This document shows positions 5,363-38,340 of a stretch of DNA of 38,965 nucleotides, piece by piece (position 1 is the stretch's first letter; each line of letters opens with the position of its first letter). Below the pieces are notes generated by a model that worked only from the letters and a program-made list of their open reading frames with translations, was not told the origin of the DNA and ran no database searches. Where the stretch lies: NCBI GenBank assembly GCA_944349765.1, contig CALVNN010000008.1, positions 1 to 38,965 of the forward strand, given 5' to 3'. Origin of the DNA: an uncultured Clostridia bacterium (GTDB taxonomy: Bacteria; Bacillota; Clostridia; Christensenellales; UBA1242). The translations under genes were made by a program, and so were the position numbers.

Positions 5363-8300
5363 TTAAGCACAATAATATTCAGTAGCACCAGCCAATCTAT
5401 AATAAGTAACACTGTTGTAAGTAGTACTCTCTAAAGTTCCATTAGAGTTAGATACTACACTCCAAGTCTGACCACCCAAAGCTGTGATGATATCACTATC
5501 ACTCACTTTAACAAGTATTCTACTTGCACTTAAACCTTTACCCGTAGCCAACGTCTGCACTGCCTCAGTCTCACAAAACATATAGAAGTAAGAACCATCA
5601 AATGCATTAGAACCTATGTACGTTACACTACTTGGAATAACCATACTTATTAAACTTGTACAATCTTGGAAAACATACATATCTAAAAATGTAACACTAT
5701 TTGGAATAACTACGTTTGTTAAGCTGGTACATTCTTTAAAAGCAGCACTATTTATCTGTCGTACACTATTAGGTATAGTAATATTAGTTAAACTACTGCA
5801 TCCTTGAAATGCATAAGCATCTATCCTTGTTACTGTATTAGGAATATTTACATTAGCCAAACTAGTACATGCATTAAATATCGAATAACCTATATTCTTT
5901 ATACCATTTCCTAAGGTAACACTAGTTAAGCCGGTACACCCATCAAAGGCGTAACTACCTATATCCGATACATTATCTGGTATTGTGATATTTATTAAAC
6001 TAGTGCAATCTCTGAATGCAGAATCTTCAATACTAGTCACTGTACTTGGAATAATTGTATTTTTACACCCCATCAATAGCGTATTAGTAGACGTCTCAAT
6101 AATAGCATTACTCCCATTTCCGCTATTATATGTCGTGTTATTTGAATCAACAACTATACTCAACAAACCAGAGCACCCACGTAAAGCGTAAGGTTTTATG
6201 CTCGTTACACTGTCTGGAATAGTTATACTCGTTAAATTTGTACACATGTAGAAAGCGTATTGATTGATAATATTTATAGCAGGTATATCATTCGCTGTGG
6301 TTGTATCAACATCCTTCAACCCCACCAAATATTTTTCATTGTCATAATTATAAATATAATATTTATTGTCAGTATCAAACTCACCAACCACACTTTCACC
6401 AGCATTTGTGTTTACTATTTCAATAGCGTAATAACCGGTATACCCATTTGTTGCATTATTTGCTATTGTCAAAGTACTATTATTTATTACCTGAACTAAG
6501 CGATAACAGTCCTTAAACGCATTGTTGCCTATGCTCGCAACACTATCTGGGATTGTTAAACTTGTAAAACCATTGCAACCACTAAAAGCTGAATAACTTA
6601 TACTTGTTACACCATCTGGAATAATTAATTCTCCCGTCAAGTTTCTACAACCATAAAAGACATAGCTACCTAAACTTGTTATACCACTTGGAATAACTAA
6701 TTCTCCTGTTAAGCTGCTACAACCATAAAAAGCATAATCCCCTATACTTGTAACACCATCTGGAATTGTGATACTTATTAAACCACTACATCCACGGAAA
6801 GCCCAAGCTCCGATGCTCGTTACACCATCTGGGATTGCTATACTTGTTAAGCCACTACATCCATAAAAAGTAGTACCATTTATAACTGTTACACCTTCTG
6901 GGATGATTAATTCACCCTTCAAGCCACTACAGCCATAAAAAGCCCCAGACCCTATGGTTGTTACATTTTTAGGTATATCTACGCTTAAAAGGCCAGTACA
7001 TCTTCTAAACGCACAAGCACCAATACTCGTTACACCATTTGAAATATCTACACTTGTTAAACCAACACAGTCATTAAAAGCATAATCGCCTATACTCGCG
7101 CATAAGCTATCAGTTACAAACTCAACCGTAGTAATGTTTGGTACTTGAAAAGCATTGGCAGCATTGTAACTATTACAAAATAAATACGCTGGAATCCTGG
7201 TCACCTTCGAACCTATGGTAACTTTTATCCCATTAGTTTCCTCACCAGCACGAAAAAATGCGGAATTTTGAGATGATAAATCGGTACAGTTTATAGCATT
7301 AAATTGTATACTCGTTAATAGTCTACAATTATTAAAAGCTTGATCTCCTATACTTGTTACACCTTCGCCTAGTATTAAACTGGTCGCACTACTACAATTC
7401 AGAAATGCATTCTCTCCTATACTTGTTACATTATTTGGTATTGTAATAGTTACCAAACTATTACACCCACTAAAAGCATAATCCATTATACTCAAAACAC
7501 CACTACCAATCGTTAGGTTTTTTAATCGAATACAACCAGAGAACGCGGAAGTTCCTATACTTGATACTTTATTTGGGATAACTACACTAGTTAAATAATT
7601 GCACCCACTGAAAGCACTATTACCAATGCTTGTTAAATCACCACCAAGGGATATACTATTTAATGCAGAGCAACCATAAAACGCATAATTTCCAATTCCC
7701 TTACATATACTCTCAGGCTCGAATTCTAACATAGTGATATTAGGATCATAAATAGTATTACCAGGATAAAATAGATATGCTGGTATATTCTCAACATTCT
7801 TTCCTATAGTAACGGTTATACCAGTAGAATTACCCCCGACATTATTAAATGCATTATTGTTATAACTAGACAAATCAGCACAATTTATCGCGTTATAATT
7901 TATCTTTATTAATCCCGTACAATCTTTAAAAGCAGAATTACCTATACTTATTACACCTTCTGGAATTGTTATACTCGTCAACTCTCTACAACCATTAAAA
8001 ACACCAGTGTCAAGCGTTGTAATTGTATTTGGTATTTTAACACTTGTAAGTTTGGATTTGTTACTAAAAGCATAATATCCCAATTCCGTTACTGGATATA
8101 CGTCATCATCAACCATGCGATTATCTGCTATTATAACATCAGTGTCTACAACTGTTGGATATCCACTCCCAGAAGAACCAGTACCAACCATACACGCATT
8201 TTCATTTGTAATTTTTGTGTATTGCACGCCACTGGTTACTGACTCTACATATACCTGCTGTCCATTAATTAAGAGATCCGTCAAAGCGATACTATTTTCC

Positions 8301-9883
8301 AACCCCTCATCACTATAAAAATTATATGTATTCTGTAAATCAGGATCAAATAAAATCAAATCAGCTAACGTATAATTATTATTTTTTATTTCTTTAACTA
8401 GTAAACCATTTTCTATTATTTGAATAGATGTATTTACAAATTTTGCATACAAATTAAAATTAGTTGTTACTGGTTTATTAAAATCATACTCATTTTCTAA
8501 AGTAACATCGGTATACCAACCAACAAACTCATAACCATCTTTTTCAGGTGCCGGTTGAGGCTCTAAAATGGCCTCCCCATTTAAAACATTTACTTTGGAA
8601 TATTGTATACCCTCACTAATAAACGTTACTGTAAATTGCTCTTTAAATAATGCATATAAATTAAAGTTACTTGTAACTATAGTGCCAAAGTTATATTCGG
8701 TAACATAACTTGTATCTGTATACCACCCTACAAAAACCATATTAGTATTATCATGAGTCGGATCATTTGGCTCACTGACGGCAGTATTCTCTGGCACTTT
8801 TACAATCTGGTATGTCTCGTCACCACTTATAAATGTTACTGTATATTCTCTTTCGAATTTTGCATAAAGGATCGTATCGTCAGTAATTGGAGTATTGAAA
8901 TCATACTTTTTCTCAAACGCAGAATCTAAATACCAACCTTTAAATGTCATATTTTCCAATGCAGAAGTTGGTTCAGTAGGAGCAACAGGAGTAGAACCTC
9001 CTACAACTTCAGTGGTCATATATGTATTGCCTTCACTTATATACGTTATAGTATGTACTTGTTCGAATCTTGCATACAAGGTGAAGCTCTTGTCGACTAT
9101 TGTCTCAAAGTTGTACTCGTTGGTGAAATCGGGGTCGGTGTACCAGCCTACAAACTCATAATCTAATTTGCTAGGCTCTGGAGGTACGGTGACTGTGAGC
9201 CCGTTAGTTAGAAAGGTTTGAGCGGTCACAAATCCAGCGCCATCCGTGTCAAACGCCACTATATAACCCAACACCGGTGGGGTGCCAAAGTTGGTATTGA
9301 ATAAAGCACTCAAATCCGTAAGTGCTATACTATCCACATCTTTGGCGTGAATGGCTTGAAGCTCGGCATTTAACTTCAAAGTAGCTGGAGCTGGAGCGTC
9401 GTTATTTATACACTTCGCACCTTGATACGTCAGCCCACTGCAAAAGATATACTTATTACTATCTGTTACCTTGAGTGGGGCTCCATCAAGGTCTGTAAGA
9501 TAATAATATCCGTCCTCAGCTCGCACCCATTTGTATGAATCACCCTCAAAGGTAGCCACATCGTCATAGTTGATAGCAAGTAAAAATCTCTTGTCCTCAT
9601 CACTAAGTGTACCAGTAGCAACGTATCTTAGGTCTGCCCTAACGTATATATCGTTGCTATCTGTTGCTCGACTAAAAGACACGCCATTGACAATGGTGTC
9701 ACCAAGGACAACGTCTTGCAAATCTTCCTCAAGATCAATAGTAGCATCAAGAGTAACTGGGTATACATTTACTTCAGTAGACTTACTTACTCTAAACGCA
9801 CTAGCCAAAGTAATACCAAGTATAGCTAGCACCCCCACCACAATAAATGCTATGTATGTATTTTTTCTTCTAACTCTAATCAT
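5363..9883 (-). CDS. Large BspA-type leucine-rich-repeat surface protein with InlB repeats
   Basis: This is a 1506-residue exported protein. Residues 1-30 form a basic start plus membrane/signal segment. Residues 30-200 are a beta-rich module whose opening (membrane segment, then 'NDIYVRADLRY') resembles the TasA/camelysin-like protein encoded at 10248-11381. Four Listeria-Bacteroides (InlB B-type) repeats follow at about 205-275, 275-345, 346-415 and 416-484, each with 'FVGWYTD...Y.F...LYA.F'. From about 600 to 1450 come more than twenty BspA/TpLRR repeats of the form 'LTSITIPDGVTSIGDYAF.GC'. There is no LPXTG sorting signal or other anchor at the C-terminus, which ends YYRLAGATEYYCA, so retention must depend on the N-terminal segment or other contacts. 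AAGGGGG precedes the ATG. BspA-type proteins usually mediate adhesion to host or other cells; that role is inferred. Confidence 0.92.
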   Translation of the reverse strand: MIRVRRKNTYIAFIVVGVLAILGITLASAFRVSKSTEVNVYPVTLDATIDLEEDLQDVVLGDTIVNGVSFSRATDSNDIYVRADLRYVATGTLSDEDKRFLLAINYDDVATFEGDSYKWVRAEDGYYYLTDLDGAPLKVTDSNKYIFCSGLTYQGAKCINNDAPAPATLKLNAELQAIHAKDVDSIALTDLSALFNTNFGTPPVLGYIVAFDTDGAGFVTAQTFLTNGLTVTVPPEPSKLDYEFVGWYTDPDFTNEYNFETIVDKSFTLYARFEQVHTITYISEGNTYMTTEVVGGSTPVAPTEPTSALENMTFKGWYLDSAFEKKYDFNTPITDDTILYAKFEREYTVTFISGDETYQIVKVPENTAVSEPNDPTHDNTNMVFVGWYTDTSYVTEYNFGTIVTSNFNLYALFKEQFTVTFISEGIQYSKVNVLNGEAILEPQPAPEKDGYEFVGWYTDVTLENEYDFNKPVTTNFNLYAKFVNTSIQIIENGLLVKEIKNNNYTLADLILFDPDLQNTYNFYSDEGLENSIALTDLLINGQQVYVESVTSGVQYTKITNENACMVGTGSSGSGYPTVVDTDVIIADNRMVDDDVYPVTELGYYAFSNKSKLTSVKIPNTITTLDTGVFNGCRELTSITIPEGVISIGNSAFKDCTGLIKINYNAINCADLSSYNNNAFNNVGGNSTGITVTIGKNVENIPAYLFYPGNTIYDPNITMLEFEPESICKGIGNYAFYGCSALNSISLGGDLTSIGNSAFSGCNYLTSVVIPNKVSSIGTSAFSGCIRLKNLTIGSGVLSIMDYAFSGCNSLVTITIPNNVTSIGENAFLNCSSATSLILGEGVTSIGDQAFNNCRLLTSIQFNAINCTDLSSQNSAFFRAGEETNGIKVTIGSKVTRIPAYLFCNSYNAANAFQVPNITTVEFVTDSLCASIGDYAFNDCVGLTSVDISNGVTSIGACAFRRCTGLLSVDIPKNVTTIGSGAFYGCSGLKGELIIPEGVTVINGTTFYGCSGLTSIAIPDGVTSIGAWAFRGCSGLISITIPDGVTSIGDYAFYGCSSLTGELVIPSGITSLGSYVFYGCRNLTGELIIPDGVTSISYSAFSGCNGFTSLTIPDSVASIGNNAFKDCYRLVQVINNSTLTIANNATNGYTGYYAIEIVNTNAGESVVGEFDTDNKYYIYNYDNEKYLVGLKDVDTTTANDIPAINIINQYAFYMCTNLTSITIPDSVTSIKPYALRGCSGLLSIVVDSNNTTYNSGNGSNAIIETSTNTLLMGCKNTIIPSTVTSIEDSAFRDCTSLINITIPDNVSDIGSYAFDGCTGLTSVTLGNGIKNIGYSIFNACTSLANVNIPNTVTRIDAYAFQGCSSLTNITIPNSVRQINSAAFKECTSLTNVVIPNSVTFLDMYVFQDCTSLISMVIPSSVTYIGSNAFDGSYFYMFCETEAVQTLATGKGLSASRILVKVSDSDIITALGGQTWSVVSNSNGTLESTTYNSVTYYRLAGATEYYCA

Positions 9884-30790: not shown

Positions 30791-31885
30791 TTAATATGAC
30801 ATTATGGTATCTACAATATCATTGGTAGCGTTCAGCTTACGCACCTTAAGTATATTTTTCTTAACATTATTTAGTGTGTTTTCATTAGAAATGATATGAC
30901 TTATAAGATTAGGTAGATCTTTGTATTTTCTAAAACCTATAATAGCGTCAAAATCTCTCATAAATTCGTAATTATTTAATTCTTGCAATACCAATTTATT
31001 GCGACATATTACAGGCACCCAAGCGTTTAAAGCCTCTGTTAGATTGATAGCACCACACTTACCTAGCATACAATCCGACGCATTCATATAAGGCACTACG
31101 CTATCTACATAGCCTAGATTTGTCACATTTCCAAGATTGTTTTTCTCTACAAAACGTTTAATTCTCTTGTAGCTTTTTTGATCTTTTCCGTTTATGCAAA
31201 TTATTTGATAATTACCTTCGGCTTTTACACTTTGTTTTAATAATTTTTGAATATTGCCAAATCCACCGCCACCTGTCATAACTAATAAAGTAAACTTATC
31301 ATCAAGCCCTAAGTCACTTCTAGCCTCTACTTTATCCTTATATACAGAAAATTCCGCATCAACTGGTATACCATAAGGCAATAATTGACTCTCAATAAAG
31401 CCCATTTCTAAGAATTGACTCACCATATTTTCATGAGGCAAAATAATATAGTCTAATACCGCTGTGTCTGCTACATATGGATACTCGCTATAGTCAGTTA
31501 CCACATAAACTGAGGTAGCCTTAAGACCAAACTTTTCTTTCAAATTAGCTAAAGTTGTAGCAACAAAGATATGTGTAGCTATCACGACATCTGGTTTATA
31601 TTCTTCTATAATATTATTTAGCTTGTTGAGCGTTCTATTACTTGTCTTGCTACCTTTTTTGCCTATTAGCGAAGAATAACACGCATTGTAAATAGGTCGT
31701 GCATACTTACATGCAAGCTTATAACCTTTATCTAAGGTCCATGTCTTGTAGCGATTCGAACACTCTTTATAAAAATCTACAATCTTTACTTCGGCTCCCT
31801 TTTCTTCAAAGCCTTTTTTTAAAGCTCTAGATATGCTATTGTGTCCCTCGCCAGAAGTAGCAGATAAAATCAAAATCTTTTTCAA
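30791..31885 (-). CDS. MGDG-synthase-type glycosyltransferase (UgtP/GT28-like)
   Basis: The family transfers glucose or galactose to diacylglycerol (UgtP, MGDG synthase) and includes MurG relatives. The 364-residue protein starts 'KKILILSATSGEGHNSISRAL', has 'KPDVVIATHIF' and the C-terminal nucleotide-sugar region 'LLVMTGGGGFGN', 'NLGYVDSVVPYMNASDCMLGKCGAINLTEAL' (several parts of the GT28 signature). The start is TTG at 31885, with GAGGTG 6 bases before it. It likely makes glycolipid or lipoteichoic-acid anchor lipid at the membrane. It follows the O-antigen-ligase-like gene by 30 bp. Confidence 0.85.
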   Translation of the reverse strand: MKKILILSATSGEGHNSISRALKKGFEEKGAEVKIVDFYKECSNRYKTWTLDKGYKLACKYARPIYNACYSSLIGKKGSKTSNRTLNKLNNIIEEYKPDVVIATHIFVATTLANLKEKFGLKATSVYVVTDYSEYPYVADTAVLDYIILPHENMVSQFLEMGFIESQLLPYGIPVDAEFSVYKDKVEARSDLGLDDKFTLLVMTGGGGFGNIQKLLKQSVKAEGNYQIICINGKDQKSYKRIKRFVEKNNLGNVTNLGYVDSVVPYMNASDCMLGKCGAINLTEALNAWVPVICRNKLVLQELNNYEFMRDFDAIIGFRKYKDLPNLISHIISNENTLNNVKKNILKVRKLNATNDIVDTIMSY

Positions 31886-31915
31886 ATTTCACCTCGTATA
31901 TCTTTCTATTTTACT

Positions 31916-33259
31916 TTAGTCTTTGCTAATAACAGCATTTTCATTCACTAAATCCGAATTTATGTCTACTTCAAGGTTCTTTTTCTTAGATTCTTCACTA
32001 GCAAGCATAAGTATAACTGCATAAATGTAACTCATAGCAAAGGTACTTGTTTGATCTATAAACCCGTATCCTTCGCAAATAAGCATACACATACAAGCAA
32101 AGAAAGTATATACATTTCCGTTTTGTATAAATGCTTGATATCTTTGGAAATAATGAGGCAAACATATAAAAAATCCTATAAGACCAGTGCTAGCCAAAAG
32201 TTGTAAAGGTGTAGAGTGGAATTGACTAAATACAAAACCATAAGTATCCACTTGCCAGCCAACACCAAATGCTGGGTAATCTCTGAAGTAGGCAATAGCC
32301 AATTCATACAATTCAAATCTACCGGTATCGTCAAAGCCTCTATTAATGTAATGTTGCATCATTTCTATTATTGTCGGCCAGAATACTATTACGCCTACTA
32401 TGATAACAGCCAAAGTACTACCTAAAGTAATGCTTATATTTTTCTTTTTCTTGGTCTTTATAAAGAATACAATGACACTAATTAGACCAAATATAATGGT
32501 AAATAGCAATGCTCCTCTACTGAATGTAAATATTATGTTGATAAAAGCAAATAGTCCGAGTAGCACATACAAATAATCGTGCTTTGTATTCAAGCCCTTA
32601 GCTAGAAGCAAAGGTATCCACATACCAATTGTCATAGCAGGAAGATTAATCTCGCCTACACCCACTCTGACGCCTTTATTTTGCATTAAACTCAAAATAT
32701 CACCACTAGCTAAGTAACACCACCACATCTCAAGTATTATAACTACAGACACTACGGTAAATAAATTGAATGCCAAATCTTTAAATGATGTCTTAGTAAA
32801 ATTATACACTAGCAAATAAGCACCTAAGGCACAAAGGCTGATAACGACGCCAAATCCAAAACTACCAAAATTAAAGTATGGACTAAATATACCGCCTAAG
32901 CTATACGCTACAACTATCAATACCAATGGCCAAAAATATTTACCCAATCTAAACTTGATGCCATTTTTTATATTTTTGTACATAAAATACGCCAAACTCG
33001 GTACAAACACCGCAAGGCATACACCAAAAACTATGTAATACGTAGTAGTAACTGGATACTCATTAAGAGCATAAACGCACGCACCAATAGTCACCATAAT
33101 AGGTGCAAAGTCGTCTTGAACAATTAACGCCGTACATATAAAGGCAACAAGTATAGATAAGCCTACAATACCTAGGTCAAGGCTATTAAATATTACAGCT
33201 ACCAGTATTACCAAAATGTAATATTGATAAGATGTAAAAAATTTTTTTAAGTTTTCCAT
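31916..33259 (-). CDS. O-antigen ligase / Wzy-type polymerase family membrane protein
   Basis: The 447-residue protein has about ten to twelve membrane segments and, in the large loop region near residues 310-340, 'DDTGRFELYELAIAYFRDYPAFGVGW', the signature region of the Wzy_C (O-antigen ligase/polymerase) family, with 'FTFSRGALL' upstream of it. Such proteins polymerise or attach polysaccharide repeat units on the outside of the membrane. The last 30 residues are cytosolic and charged. AAGGAG precedes the ATG. Its place between the ABC transporter and the lipid glycosyltransferase suggests work on an exported envelope glycan. Confidence 0.85.
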   Translation of the reverse strand: MENLKKFFTSYQYYILVILVAVIFNSLDLGIVGLSILVAFICTALIVQDDFAPIMVTIGACVYALNEYPVTTTYYIVFGVCLAVFVPSLAYFMYKNIKNGIKFRLGKYFWPLVLIVVAYSLGGIFSPYFNFGSFGFGVVISLCALGAYLLVYNFTKTSFKDLAFNLFTVVSVVIILEMWWCYLASGDILSLMQNKGVRVGVGEINLPAMTIGMWIPLLLAKGLNTKHDYLYVLLGLFAFINIIFTFSRGALLFTIIFGLISVIVFFIKTKKKKNISITLGSTLAVIIVGVIVFWPTIIEMMQHYINRGFDDTGRFELYELAIAYFRDYPAFGVGWQVDTYGFVFSQFHSTPLQLLASTGLIGFFICLPHYFQRYQAFIQNGNVYTFFACMCMLICEGYGFIDQTSTFAMSYIYAVILMLASEESKKKNLEVDINSDLVNENAVISKD

Positions 33260-35728: not shown

Positions 35729-35860
35729 GCGAAAGCCTAAGCAAATTTATTATTCTACAAAATAATCAAAAATTCAAATTTTAATTTATTGCATAAATTA
35801 TATATTCATTTAAAACATTTTTGCTTTCACTAAAAAATTAAAAAATTCATTTGCACTAAA

Positions 35861-35906
35861 ATAAAAACTCACTTAGTAAGTTTAACCAATCTTACACAAG
35901 TGAGTC
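35861..35906 (-). terminator. Terminator after the carrier-protein gene
   Basis: On the minus strand the two-part stem ACTCACTT/AAGTGAGT and GTAAG/CTTAC (35867-35905) is followed by a run of T. It begins 12 bases after the stop at 35918. Confidence 0.88.
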
Positions 35907-35917
35907 TTGTTTGCCAT

Positions 35918-36166
35918 CTACATTGCCATAGTTTGAACTGTGGTTCTACGCTCAATATATGTTATTAAATCTGATAAAGTATCTAAATTATTCATATCGT
36001 CATCAGGTATTTGCACGCCAAATGATTCCTCTATGTCACATATGAGTGATATGACCCCAAAAGAATCCAAACCAACGTCGGTTTGAAGACTCATATTGTT
36101 TTGAATATCTCCCACTGACAGGCCTGAATAATCACTTATAATTTCTTTTAAACGATTTTCTATCAT
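35918..36166 (-). CDS. Free-standing acyl/peptidyl carrier protein
   Basis: An 82-residue carrier protein with the 4'-phosphopantetheine site GLDSFG (Ser35) and the usual four-helix layout ending 'LSDLITYIERR'. A thioester-bound acyl or aminoacyl group is carried on the phosphopantetheine arm. GGAG precedes the ATG. It follows the condensation-type gene by 22 bp and is the second gene of that unit, which is ended by a terminator. It is not adjacent to fatty-acid genes, and its sequence neither proves nor excludes a fatty-acid role; the neighbour suggests a peptide or ester-forming one. No adenylation or transferase gene to load it is in the window. Confidence 0.88.
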   Translation of the reverse strand: MIENRLKEIISDYSGLSVGDIQNNMSLQTDVGLDSFGVISLICDIEESFGVQIPDDDMNNLDTLSDLITYIERRTTVQTMAM

Positions 36167-36188: not shown

Positions 36189-37532
36189 TTAATTTATTTT
36201 TATATCTTTAATTAGAATATCAGGGTTATCCATTATCTGATTGATTATACTAACATAATTTTTATGAAATCTAATCACATCATCTCTACTTATTATCTTA
36301 TCTTGTACGTCATAAGCTAAGTTTGCATCACCTTCGTTTGTATTATATAACATTGCTAAATACGCTGGCAAAGCACCTTTACCATTACTATAGATATTAA
36401 ATTCAATACCATTTGTATTTACAATAGGTATAAATGAAAAAGTAATAGAATAATATGTCTCAAGCATAGATGACCCATATCTTTTATGAAGCATCATTTC
36501 AAATTGCTGGTCGCTAAAGCCTAAATGTCTATACAATTGATTCTGATTTTCCACAAAACTAGCTAAATTGTCTTTAAAGCTTTTTTCTCCATCCACAACT
36601 GTATAACATCCAATACTTTGCACTTTCGTGCCAGCACATTTTCTTTCCAAATTAGTAGCCCTACAATTGCAAAGCTCTAAGGGCAACATATTGCTTACAT
36701 TACCATTCATTTTTGACGCTGTTATAGAACACATATAAAACAATAAATTAGCCATAGATATTCTCGACTGTTTGCTATACATAACCACCTTATCTATAGT
36801 CGCTTTGTCTATGTTATACATATATCCAGTCGTATCATTTTTTACAAAGAACATCTTCATAGCACGTTTGTTTTTTGCAAGTTGCTTCTGCCACAAAGGC
36901 TGGTTAATCCCGTGAATACCTGCGTAATATGGCTCCTCTCTACTCTCAAGATATTCCTTAAAATACTCGTAATGTTTATTGTATTTGTCAGAGTTGTTTT
37001 TTGTTTCAATATCCCTGATAAGCACTTCTTCAAATTTGGTTGGCGGGGTAGGTAATTCAGTTTTATTTACATATGCATTATAGACTTCAAACAAATCTTT
37101 AAAAATCACATTTATCCCATATATATCAAGTATTAAATGACACACTTTAAGTAGTACCATATATTTACCATCAAAGGTCTTGATAAAGTAAGGCTCAATC
37201 ACCACTCCCTTAAGGTATTTGATAGCTTTCTTTTTTAATTTATTAAAAAATTTATCTTGTTCCTTTTGTGTCGTAAACTCCAAATAAGGTATATTATCGA
37301 ATTCAAACTTTTCAAGAAAGTATTGCATTAACTTTTTGTCTTGTTTAACAAAACGCAAACGTAAACAATCATTACGCTCTAATATCTTATTAAAAGCTTG
37401 AGTCATTATTTCAAAATCAATTGGTTTCTCACTTACTGAAGCTGTTAAGATATTTATAACTCTTTTGTATAACGTGTACTTACATTGCAACTTAACAACT
37501 TCCTGCGAAGCATTCAACTCGTATAGTTTCAT
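36189..37532 (-). CDS. Free-standing NRPS-type condensation / acyltransferase protein
   Basis: The 447-residue length, the start 'MKLYELNASQEV', 'RNDCLRLRF' (residues 53-61) and the motif KVCHLILDIYG (129-139) mark a condensation-domain fold, as in NRPS C domains and free acyltransferases. The active motif HHxxxDG reads CHLILDI: the first His is Cys131, His132 and Asp136 are kept, and the final Gly is Ile137. The second His is the catalytic one in the family, so it may be active. No adenylation or thioesterase domain is attached. AAGGAG precedes the ATG. It is divergent from the membrane XRE gene at 37747 and followed at 22 bp by the carrier protein. It may join two thioester- or CoA-bound groups, with one on the carrier. 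Confidence 0.85.
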   Translation of the reverse strand: MKLYELNASQEVVKLQCKYTLYKRVINILTASVSEKPIDFEIMTQAFNKILERNDCLRLRFVKQDKKLMQYFLEKFEFDNIPYLEFTTQKEQDKFFNKLKKKAIKYLKGVVIEPYFIKTFDGKYMVLLKVCHLILDIYGINVIFKDLFEVYNAYVNKTELPTPPTKFEEVLIRDIETKNNSDKYNKHYEYFKEYLESREEPYYAGIHGINQPLWQKQLAKNKRAMKMFFVKNDTTGYMYNIDKATIDKVVMYSKQSRISMANLLFYMCSITASKMNGNVSNMLPLELCNCRATNLERKCAGTKVQSIGCYTVVDGEKSFKDNLASFVENQNQLYRHLGFSDQQFEMMLHKRYGSSMLETYYSITFSFIPIVNTNGIEFNIYSNGKGALPAYLAMLYNTNEGDANLAYDVQDKIISRDDVIRFHKNYVSIINQIMDNPDILIKDIKIN

Positions 37533-37586
37533 TTTTTCTCCTTATATTTTATTTGAAAATTGCAATAACTTTAGCAATTTCACGCT

Positions 37587-37616
37587 ATTATACGTATAAA
37601 AAATCTATTAAAGCAA
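37587..37616 (-). promoter_or_regulatory. Promoter of the condensation-carrier unit
   Basis: On the minus strand TTGCTT (37611-37616), 18 bp, TATAAT (37587-37592). The 9-bp inverted repeat of the operator region begins directly at the -35 box. Confidence 0.6.
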
Positions 37617-37697
37617 GAGAATTATAAAAAAATAATTCTCAACTTAAAAATGCCTAGCGAGAATTTTAAAAATATCTCTCCACTAAAGCGAGAATTT
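37617..37697. promoter_or_regulatory. Operator-like cluster between divergent promoters
   Basis: GAGAATTAT (37617-37625) and ATAATTCTC (37632-37640) form a perfect 9-bp inverted repeat with a 6-bp A spacer. Two direct copies of AGCGAGAATTT follow at 37656-37666 and 37687-37697, 31 bp apart (three helical turns). All four share GAGAATT. The set lies between the condensation-gene promoter and the XRE-gene promoter, so one regulator could control both. Confidence 0.6.
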
Positions 37698-37710
37698 AGT
37701 TAAAAACTTG

Positions 37711-37739
37711 TTGTTTTTCGCATAAATTCATAGTATAAT
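37711..37739 (+). promoter_or_regulatory. Promoter of the membrane XRE gene, giving a leaderless mRNA
   Basis: TTGTTT (37711-37716), 17 bp, TATAAT (37734-37739). With a normal -10-to-start distance of 6-7 bases, transcription begins at about 37746, at or next to the A of the ATG at 37747. No ribosome-binding site precedes the ATG. Confidence 0.75.
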
Positions 37740-37746
37740 ATCCACA

Positions 37747-38340
37747 ATGGAAAATATTAAGGAAGTAATAAAAGACAATTTAATAAATCTTAGAAAACAA
37801 AATAATCTAACGCAAATAGAATTAGCCAAGAAATTAAACTATTCAGACAAAGCTGTGTCTAGATGGGAAAACGGAGAAGTCACTCCAGATGTGGAAGTAC
37901 TTCAAAATATAGCTGACATTTACGGTGTGCCTCTGACGTATCTATTTGAAAAGGAACATTTTGAAGAAGCTAATGTAGATAGCTCACCCAAGCAATATGC
38001 AATGGCTATTTTAGCCATATTAGCTATATGGACAGCAATCACTATCACCTTTGTATATTTGTACATAGCATATGACTATTCTTACTGGCAAATATTTGTA
38101 TGGGGAGTCCCTGTATCCGCTGCCTTTTTGTCTTTTTTTAATAAAAAGATATATGATAATAAGATAGTTATACTTGTTACTCGTTCTATTCTAAATTGGT
38201 CATTATTTGCAAGCTTATATGTTCAATTTATTGAGGCAAATATTTGGCTTATATTCCTAATAGGTATCCCTATTCAAGCTTGTATTGTAGTAGCTTATTA
38301 CATAGAAGTCACACAAGATAAGTCAAACAAAAGTAAATAA
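37747..38340 (+). CDS. Membrane-anchored XRE-family regulator, 197 aa
   Basis: Residues 8-65 are a Cro/C1-type helix-turn-helix ('LRKQNNLTQIELAKKLNYSDKAVSRWENG', then 'LQNIADIYGVPLTYLF'). From about residue 84 come four hydrophobic segments (84-108, 113-131, and two more to about 188), so the DNA-binding domain is tethered to the membrane. This architecture is known in Bacillota regulators and may let the membrane or a ligand control DNA binding. The gene is divergent from the condensation-carrier pair with GAGAATT repeats between, a common layout for a regulator and its target. The transcript appears to start at the ATG. Confidence 0.88.
   Translation: MENIKEVIKDNLINLRKQNNLTQIELAKKLNYSDKAVSRWENGEVTPDVEVLQNIADIYGVPLTYLFEKEHFEEANVDSSPKQYAMAILAILAIWTAITITFVYLYIAYDYSYWQIFVWGVPVSAAFLSFFNKKIYDNKIVILVTRSILNWSLFASLYVQFIEANIWLIFLIGIPIQACIVVAYYIEVTQDKSNKSK

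Follow-up and report, generated by a model that had tools for sequence, protein, structure and literature searches.

A free-standing condensation enzyme, a dedicated carrier and a divergent membrane regulator as a probable two-protein variant of the gut fatty-acid-amide pathway

We analysed a 38,965-nucleotide stretch of DNA (the window; contig CALVNN010000008.1 of assembly GCA_944349765.1) from an uncultured Clostridia bacterium of the order Christensenellales. The window holds a compact unit of three genes with the following features.

36189..37532, minus strand: free-standing condensation (C) enzyme of the OaaC (C_FAA) kind with the motif CHLILDI; 447 aa, PF00668 E 2.1e-23
35918..36166, minus strand: dedicated acyl carrier protein, phosphopantetheine site in GLDSFG; 82 aa, PF00550 E 3.2e-13
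37747..38340, plus strand: XRE regulator of the Cro/C1 type, divergently oriented, with four membrane segments towards the C terminus; 197 aa, HTH_3 E 3.8e-17
37677..37696, minus strand: predicted operator site 1, AATTCTCGCTTTAGTGGAGA; left arm conserved, from intergenic comparison
37617..37640, no strand given: predicted operator site 2, perfect dyad GAGAATTATAAAAAAATAATTCTC; from intergenic comparison
35859..35908, minus strand: intrinsic-terminator-like hairpin and U-run, 3′ of the carrier gene; from folding against shuffles

A first-pass annotation, made from the letters and their reading frames, had described a free C protein with CHLILDI (Cys131, His132 and Asp136), a free carrier, a terminator and a divergent regulator with four membrane helices. 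All of these were recovered here. The C protein is a single significant PF00668 domain whose 447 aa agree with the stand-alone length of about 450 aa that marks fatty-acid-amide (FAA) enzymes, and the PF00550 carrier starts 22 bp downstream, as had been claimed. The hairpin past the carrier gene folds at a dG of -17.8 kcal/mol (z -4.3), a value equalled in 0 of 200 shuffles. The regulator combines its HTH_3 domain with hydrophobic segments at residues 85-103, 113-131, 140-158 and 166-184. Also as annotated, no adenylation, thioesterase or phosphopantetheinyl transferase gene adjoins the unit. The interval originally assigned to it, 36189-37760, takes in C and the regulator's first codons but leaves the carrier just outside.

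Performing a PDB sequence search, we found that the best solved relative of C is 12kh, which aligns over the full length (E 7.6e-31). A profile built from six relatives scored 12kh at 155 bits and the next chain at 44.5 bits. The PDB title of 12kh reads only 'Condensation Domain Protein'; judging from its length, insertion and DHxxxDS motif against the published description (PMC13142362), we infer that it is OaaC. The OaaA/OaaACP/OaaC system of Coprococcus eutactus yields oleoyl aminovaleric acid and belongs to the gut FAA clusters of Chang and colleagues; the structure is reported in PMC13142362, where OaaC makes FAAs from acyl-ACP and small amines. The window C is related to OaaC at low identity, about a fifth.

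We then placed C among its relatives in a maximum-likelihood tree, with NRPS domains of the same order and one tyrocidine domain as the outgroups. Sixteen free-standing proteins, including OaaC and the Monoglobus enzymes from C-ACP-ligase clusters, grouped apart from NRPS starter and internal C domains with a support of 100/99, and the eleven-member clade holding the window C had a support of 100/100. The nearest NRPS type by profile score is the starter C domain. The AlphaFold model of C (pLDDT 93.4) came closest, among the solved folds listed as matches, to the C8-CoA-bound starter C domain of RzmA, with a Z of 38.6 and an rmsd of 2.9 across 413 residues; 12kh was absent among these matches from a fold library extending to 8 April 2026. 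Starter domains such as that of RzmA, which act in lipoinitiation, resemble the window C in fold and in the predicted use of an acyl donor. Unlike it, they belong to modules, retain HHxxxD, do without the insertion described below and fall outside the free-standing clade. The window C does not belong to an NRPS module: it is a single-domain protein, and neither an AMP-binding domain nor a second C domain was detected in the genome.

Aligning 15 sequences, we observed that His132, Asp136 and Arg291 are invariant. The position of Cys131 varies, with Ala in the relative G138, Asn at another locus (L031) and Asp in OaaC. The first-pass annotation had asked whether Cys131, His132 and Asp136 form an active site; we dropped Cys131 as a catalytic candidate because the position is not conserved, while the other two residues are kept. 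The clade accepts C, A or N at the first motif position and I, L, V or T after the Asp. CHLILDI therefore departs from the (D/H)HxxxD(S/A/G) reported for most FAA enzymes, the final position of which is called variable (PMC13142362). OaaC also carries an insertion of about 17 residues (PMC13142362). The corresponding segment of the window C, near residues 199-236, has 38 residues, against 38-41 in the group that includes OaaC and about 20-22 in most NRPS domains compared, and the AlphaFold model places a helix within it (residues 212-219).

The possibility had been raised that the carrier is simply the general fatty-acid ACP of this organism. The sequence comparison answers otherwise: the general ACP, of the DSLD type, sits elsewhere, on contig C1, and the window carrier is 44-46% identical to the carriers of relatives' C units vs 22-29% to general ACPs. 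It also scored below every curated ACP cut-off. By these measures the carrier is dedicated and distinct from the general ACP.

Surveying the same family, we found C in 7 of 309 genomes, the window's counted, which belong to six genera and show the following gene orders.

G206: XRE regulator divergent from C-ligase-ACP
G138: XRE regulator divergent from C-ligase, then contig end
G187: C-ligase-ACP
Window and G285: XRE regulator divergent from C-ACP
G222: XRE regulator divergent from C
G221: XRE regulator divergent from C, and on a short contig a second copy of the XRE regulator divergent from a separate ligase-ACP unit that has an operator too

An eighth candidate, G097, was left out, as its match (31% over 99 aa) lies inside an unrelated 595-aa frame. 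In each of the six genomes with that end assembled, the regulator gene points away from C. As for a conserved fourth gene, an AMP-binding ligase adjoins C in three genomes (G206, G138 and G187), and a ligase profile search gave strong matches in 4 of the 309 genomes, all of them among the seven with C (chance p about 9e-8). Counted by genus, four ligase genera fall within the six C genera of 42, which by our own arithmetic has a chance of about 1.3e-4. Thus the description of the unit as 'minimal' may fit the two-protein set of the window but not the several relatives that add the ligase. The AMP-binding gene of G285 was considered as its missing ligase and rejected, being DltA-like and located beside a small carrier and a DltB-like gene.

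Beyond the family, a profile scan of the genome-contig collection returned 14 C loci; a scan of the same collection with the single sequence gave no match to C, and the plasmid collection gave none. The relatives are nearly all MAGs, and those with a named source come from the guts of sheep, water buffalo, deer and horse. A Bacteroidales bin has C and ligase together with the ACP 5.6 kb off, a Sphaerochaetaceae bin has C and ligase apart, and in three Clostridia genomes of larger size C stands by itself, with no ligase of this kind. Comparing the C-only genes of two genomes (L026 and L027), we obtained a pN of 0.107 and a pS of 0.667, by which these genes are under strong purifying selection. 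For the window C, synonymous sites are close to saturation in such comparisons, with pN near 0.28.

The intergenic regions between the regulator and its neighbouring gene keep the left arm AATTCTC(G/T)C in 7 of 7 cases, followed by a partial inverted copy. This operator-like element is present at the C promoters and at the promoter of the detached ligase of G221, and a dyad resembling site 2 occurs in G222, G206 and G138. Scored with a leave-one-out matrix from which the window was omitted, the window site reached 25.1, and the next-best place in the 39 kb reached 10.0. A matrix made from C promoters only gave the G221 ligase unit 16.9, the sole match above 9 in that locus. Four of the window's 20 GAGAAT/ATTCTC half-sites fall within the 214-bp gap between regulator and C, where 0.11 would be expected, and the operator has a single occurrence in the window, which lies in this gap. 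Owing to a different spacing, the sites in G222, in G138 and at the ligase unit of G221 are not matched by the operator pattern. The relatives' regulators are 45-51% identical to that of the window. The conserved synteny and the shared predicted operator support the earlier idea that a membrane regulator controls the unit, probably by binding the GAGAAT/ATTCTC sites.

The MacB-like gene, 255 bp beyond the carrier, had been suggested as a possible member. It does not adjoin C in close relatives, the terminator-like hairpin stands between it and the carrier, and it has no operator copy of its own. We rejected it as a conserved partner, and it is probably not part of the FAA unit. A caveat comes from G435, a distant relative, in which five genes on one strand (L104, 5526-13653) encode a ligase, an ACP, an ABC ATPase, an FtsX/MacB permease (1243 aa) and C, with the ATPase and permease between ACP and C. 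This built-in candidate exporter makes FAA export by such transporters worth a look there. Directly after the MacB-like gene of the window, a diglucosyl-diacylglycerol-synthase-like glycosyltransferase lies beside a Wzy_C-type ligase (30791-33259, minus strand).

From the gene content, homology, clade, conserved catalytic residues, ligase linkage in relatives and operator-like element, we consider that the locus is probably a two-protein, regulated form of the gut FAA pathway, with its reaction and product predicted. AcpS would turn the dedicated carrier into its holo form, which would then take on a long acyl chain from a source discussed below. The C protein would move this chain to a freely diffusing small amine and release an N-acyl amide, with His132 catalytic, Asp136 structural and Cys131 incidental. 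The membrane-bound regulator would bind GAGAAT/ATTCTC in the shared promoter region and control both the operon and itself. The first-pass interpretation is thus upheld in part: acylation of a small molecule gains support through the homology to OaaC, as does control by the regulator, while a catalytic role of Cys131 is unlikely, the unit is more than minimal in several relatives, and a lipid or envelope target gains no support.

The above reading raises a question of how the carrier is loaded. By single-family searches, neither an AMP-binding enzyme nor FabF was detected in the window's genome, an assembly that is 93% complete in 30 contigs. The genome has PlsX, a FakA-like kinase, one AcpS and two carriers. 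As far as an assembly of this completeness allows, the absence of FabF suggests dependence on outside fatty acids. The lack of a detected AMP-binding enzyme counts against the above reading unless the carrier is loaded by another route, and the presence of PlsX, the FakA-like kinase and AcpS means that the carrier may be loaded through acyl-phosphate. It is quite possible, though we would put it below even chances, that the system is an ordinary three-protein FAA system whose ligase gene lies in the unassembled 7%, perhaps in a separate XRE/ligase/ACP unit such as G221 holds on a short contig. The fragmentation of the assembly and the presence of a ligase in 4 of the 7 C-bearing genomes favour such a gap. 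However, G285 (97%) and G222 (81%) likewise lack the ligase. Were gaps the sole cause in all three genomes, the naive probability would be about 0.07 x 0.03 x 0.19 = 4e-4, although accessory genes can go missing more often in MAG binning; the C-only loci of the three larger Clostridia genomes also speak against it. Alternatively, the ligase may have been replaced, with FakAB making acyl-phosphate from exogenous fatty acid, PlsX passing the chain to the dedicated carrier and C to the amine; we regard this as one plausible option, held with about one-in-three conviction. Such a ligase-free route is chemically reasonable, since PlsX of Enterococcus faecalis charges the auxiliary carrier AcpB to completion, with oleoyl- or stearoyl-phosphate as the acyl source (PMC6509188). 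PlsX, the FakA-like kinase, AcpS and the two carriers of the genome also favour it, as does the failure to detect FabF or an AMP-binding enzyme. On the other hand, PlsX has no direct link to the window carrier, and the ligase may be lacking through a gap in the assembly. We regard ligase-free charging and a ligase in the unassembled 7% as about equally likely. The fuller proposal remains tentative: an adenylation-free N-acyl amide pathway in which PlsX loads the dedicated carrier from acyl-phosphate and a CHxxxDI C enzyme passes the chain to an amine, under a membrane XRE regulator that also governs a relative's detached ligase-carrier unit, in reduced-genome gut Clostridia seemingly unable to make fatty acids.

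The stepwise simplification across relatives, from C-ligase-ACP to C-ACP to C alone, would also fit a decaying remnant whose product was lost once the ligase was gone. We think this unlikely, as the genes for C, carrier and regulator have stayed intact together with the operator and the terminator, and the low pN against pS of the L026/L027 pair argues against decay of C even without an adjoining ligase. Still less probable to us is that C and the carrier serve to acylate a lipid of the membrane or a polymer of the envelope, together with the MGDG-synthase-like glycosyltransferase, the Wzy_C-type ligase and the MacB-like exporter. These genes neighbour the unit on the same strand, and the G435 cluster encloses an ABC ATPase and permease, but none of the neighbours adjoins C in the closer relatives, the hairpin parts the carrier from the MacB gene, and the single predicted operator of the window lies in the regulator-C gap. 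Nothing we found favours a target among lipids or envelope components.

The predicted FAA unit shares with the Coprococcus eutactus Oaa system a free-standing C enzyme and carrier, the catalytic His and Asp, the insertion of about 17 residues and a common clade, and in several of its close relatives the ligase belongs to the set too. It differs in having CHxxxDI instead of DHxxxDS, in its low identity, in the lack of a detected ligase in its genome, in its membrane XRE regulator and conserved predicted operator, and in the C-ligase-ACP order of its relatives. With E. faecalis AcpB/PlsX/FakAB (PMC6509188) it has in common a second carrier, PlsX and FakA, and thus a possible loading route, whereas AcpB serves fatty-acid regulation beside plsX and the window carrier adjoins a condensation enzyme. 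FAAs from gut Clostridia act on host receptors (PMC13142362). The clade described here is a separate, deep branch of FAA enzymes in gut bacteria of livestock and wild herbivores with genomes of about 1 Mb; it adds a candidate regulator and operator to the family. What is unusual is that the fatty-acid-activating enzyme of the known gut systems is missing from the genome as assembled, which raises carrier charging without an adenylating enzyme as a testable alternative.

At the contig end (38384-38965, minus strand), convergent to the regulator, lies the 3′ end of a VirB4-like conjugation ATPase gene (Mbov_0397 ICE family, E 1.2e-55); together with the patchy spread of the unit, it might point to mobility. 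In G187, a contig (L017, 1-598) opens with a frame that joins a solute-binding-protein-like start to the final part of C; this is probably a chimera made in assembly. Two C-alone genomes (G310 and G309, loci L040 and L044) encode proteins of about 1000 aa in which an AMP-binding region is combined with carrier-like and reductase-like ones; they seem to resemble carboxylic acid reductases. The window also encodes a large surface protein of 1506 aa (5363-9883, minus strand) with leucine-rich (BspA-like) and InlB-like repeats, as judged by eye.
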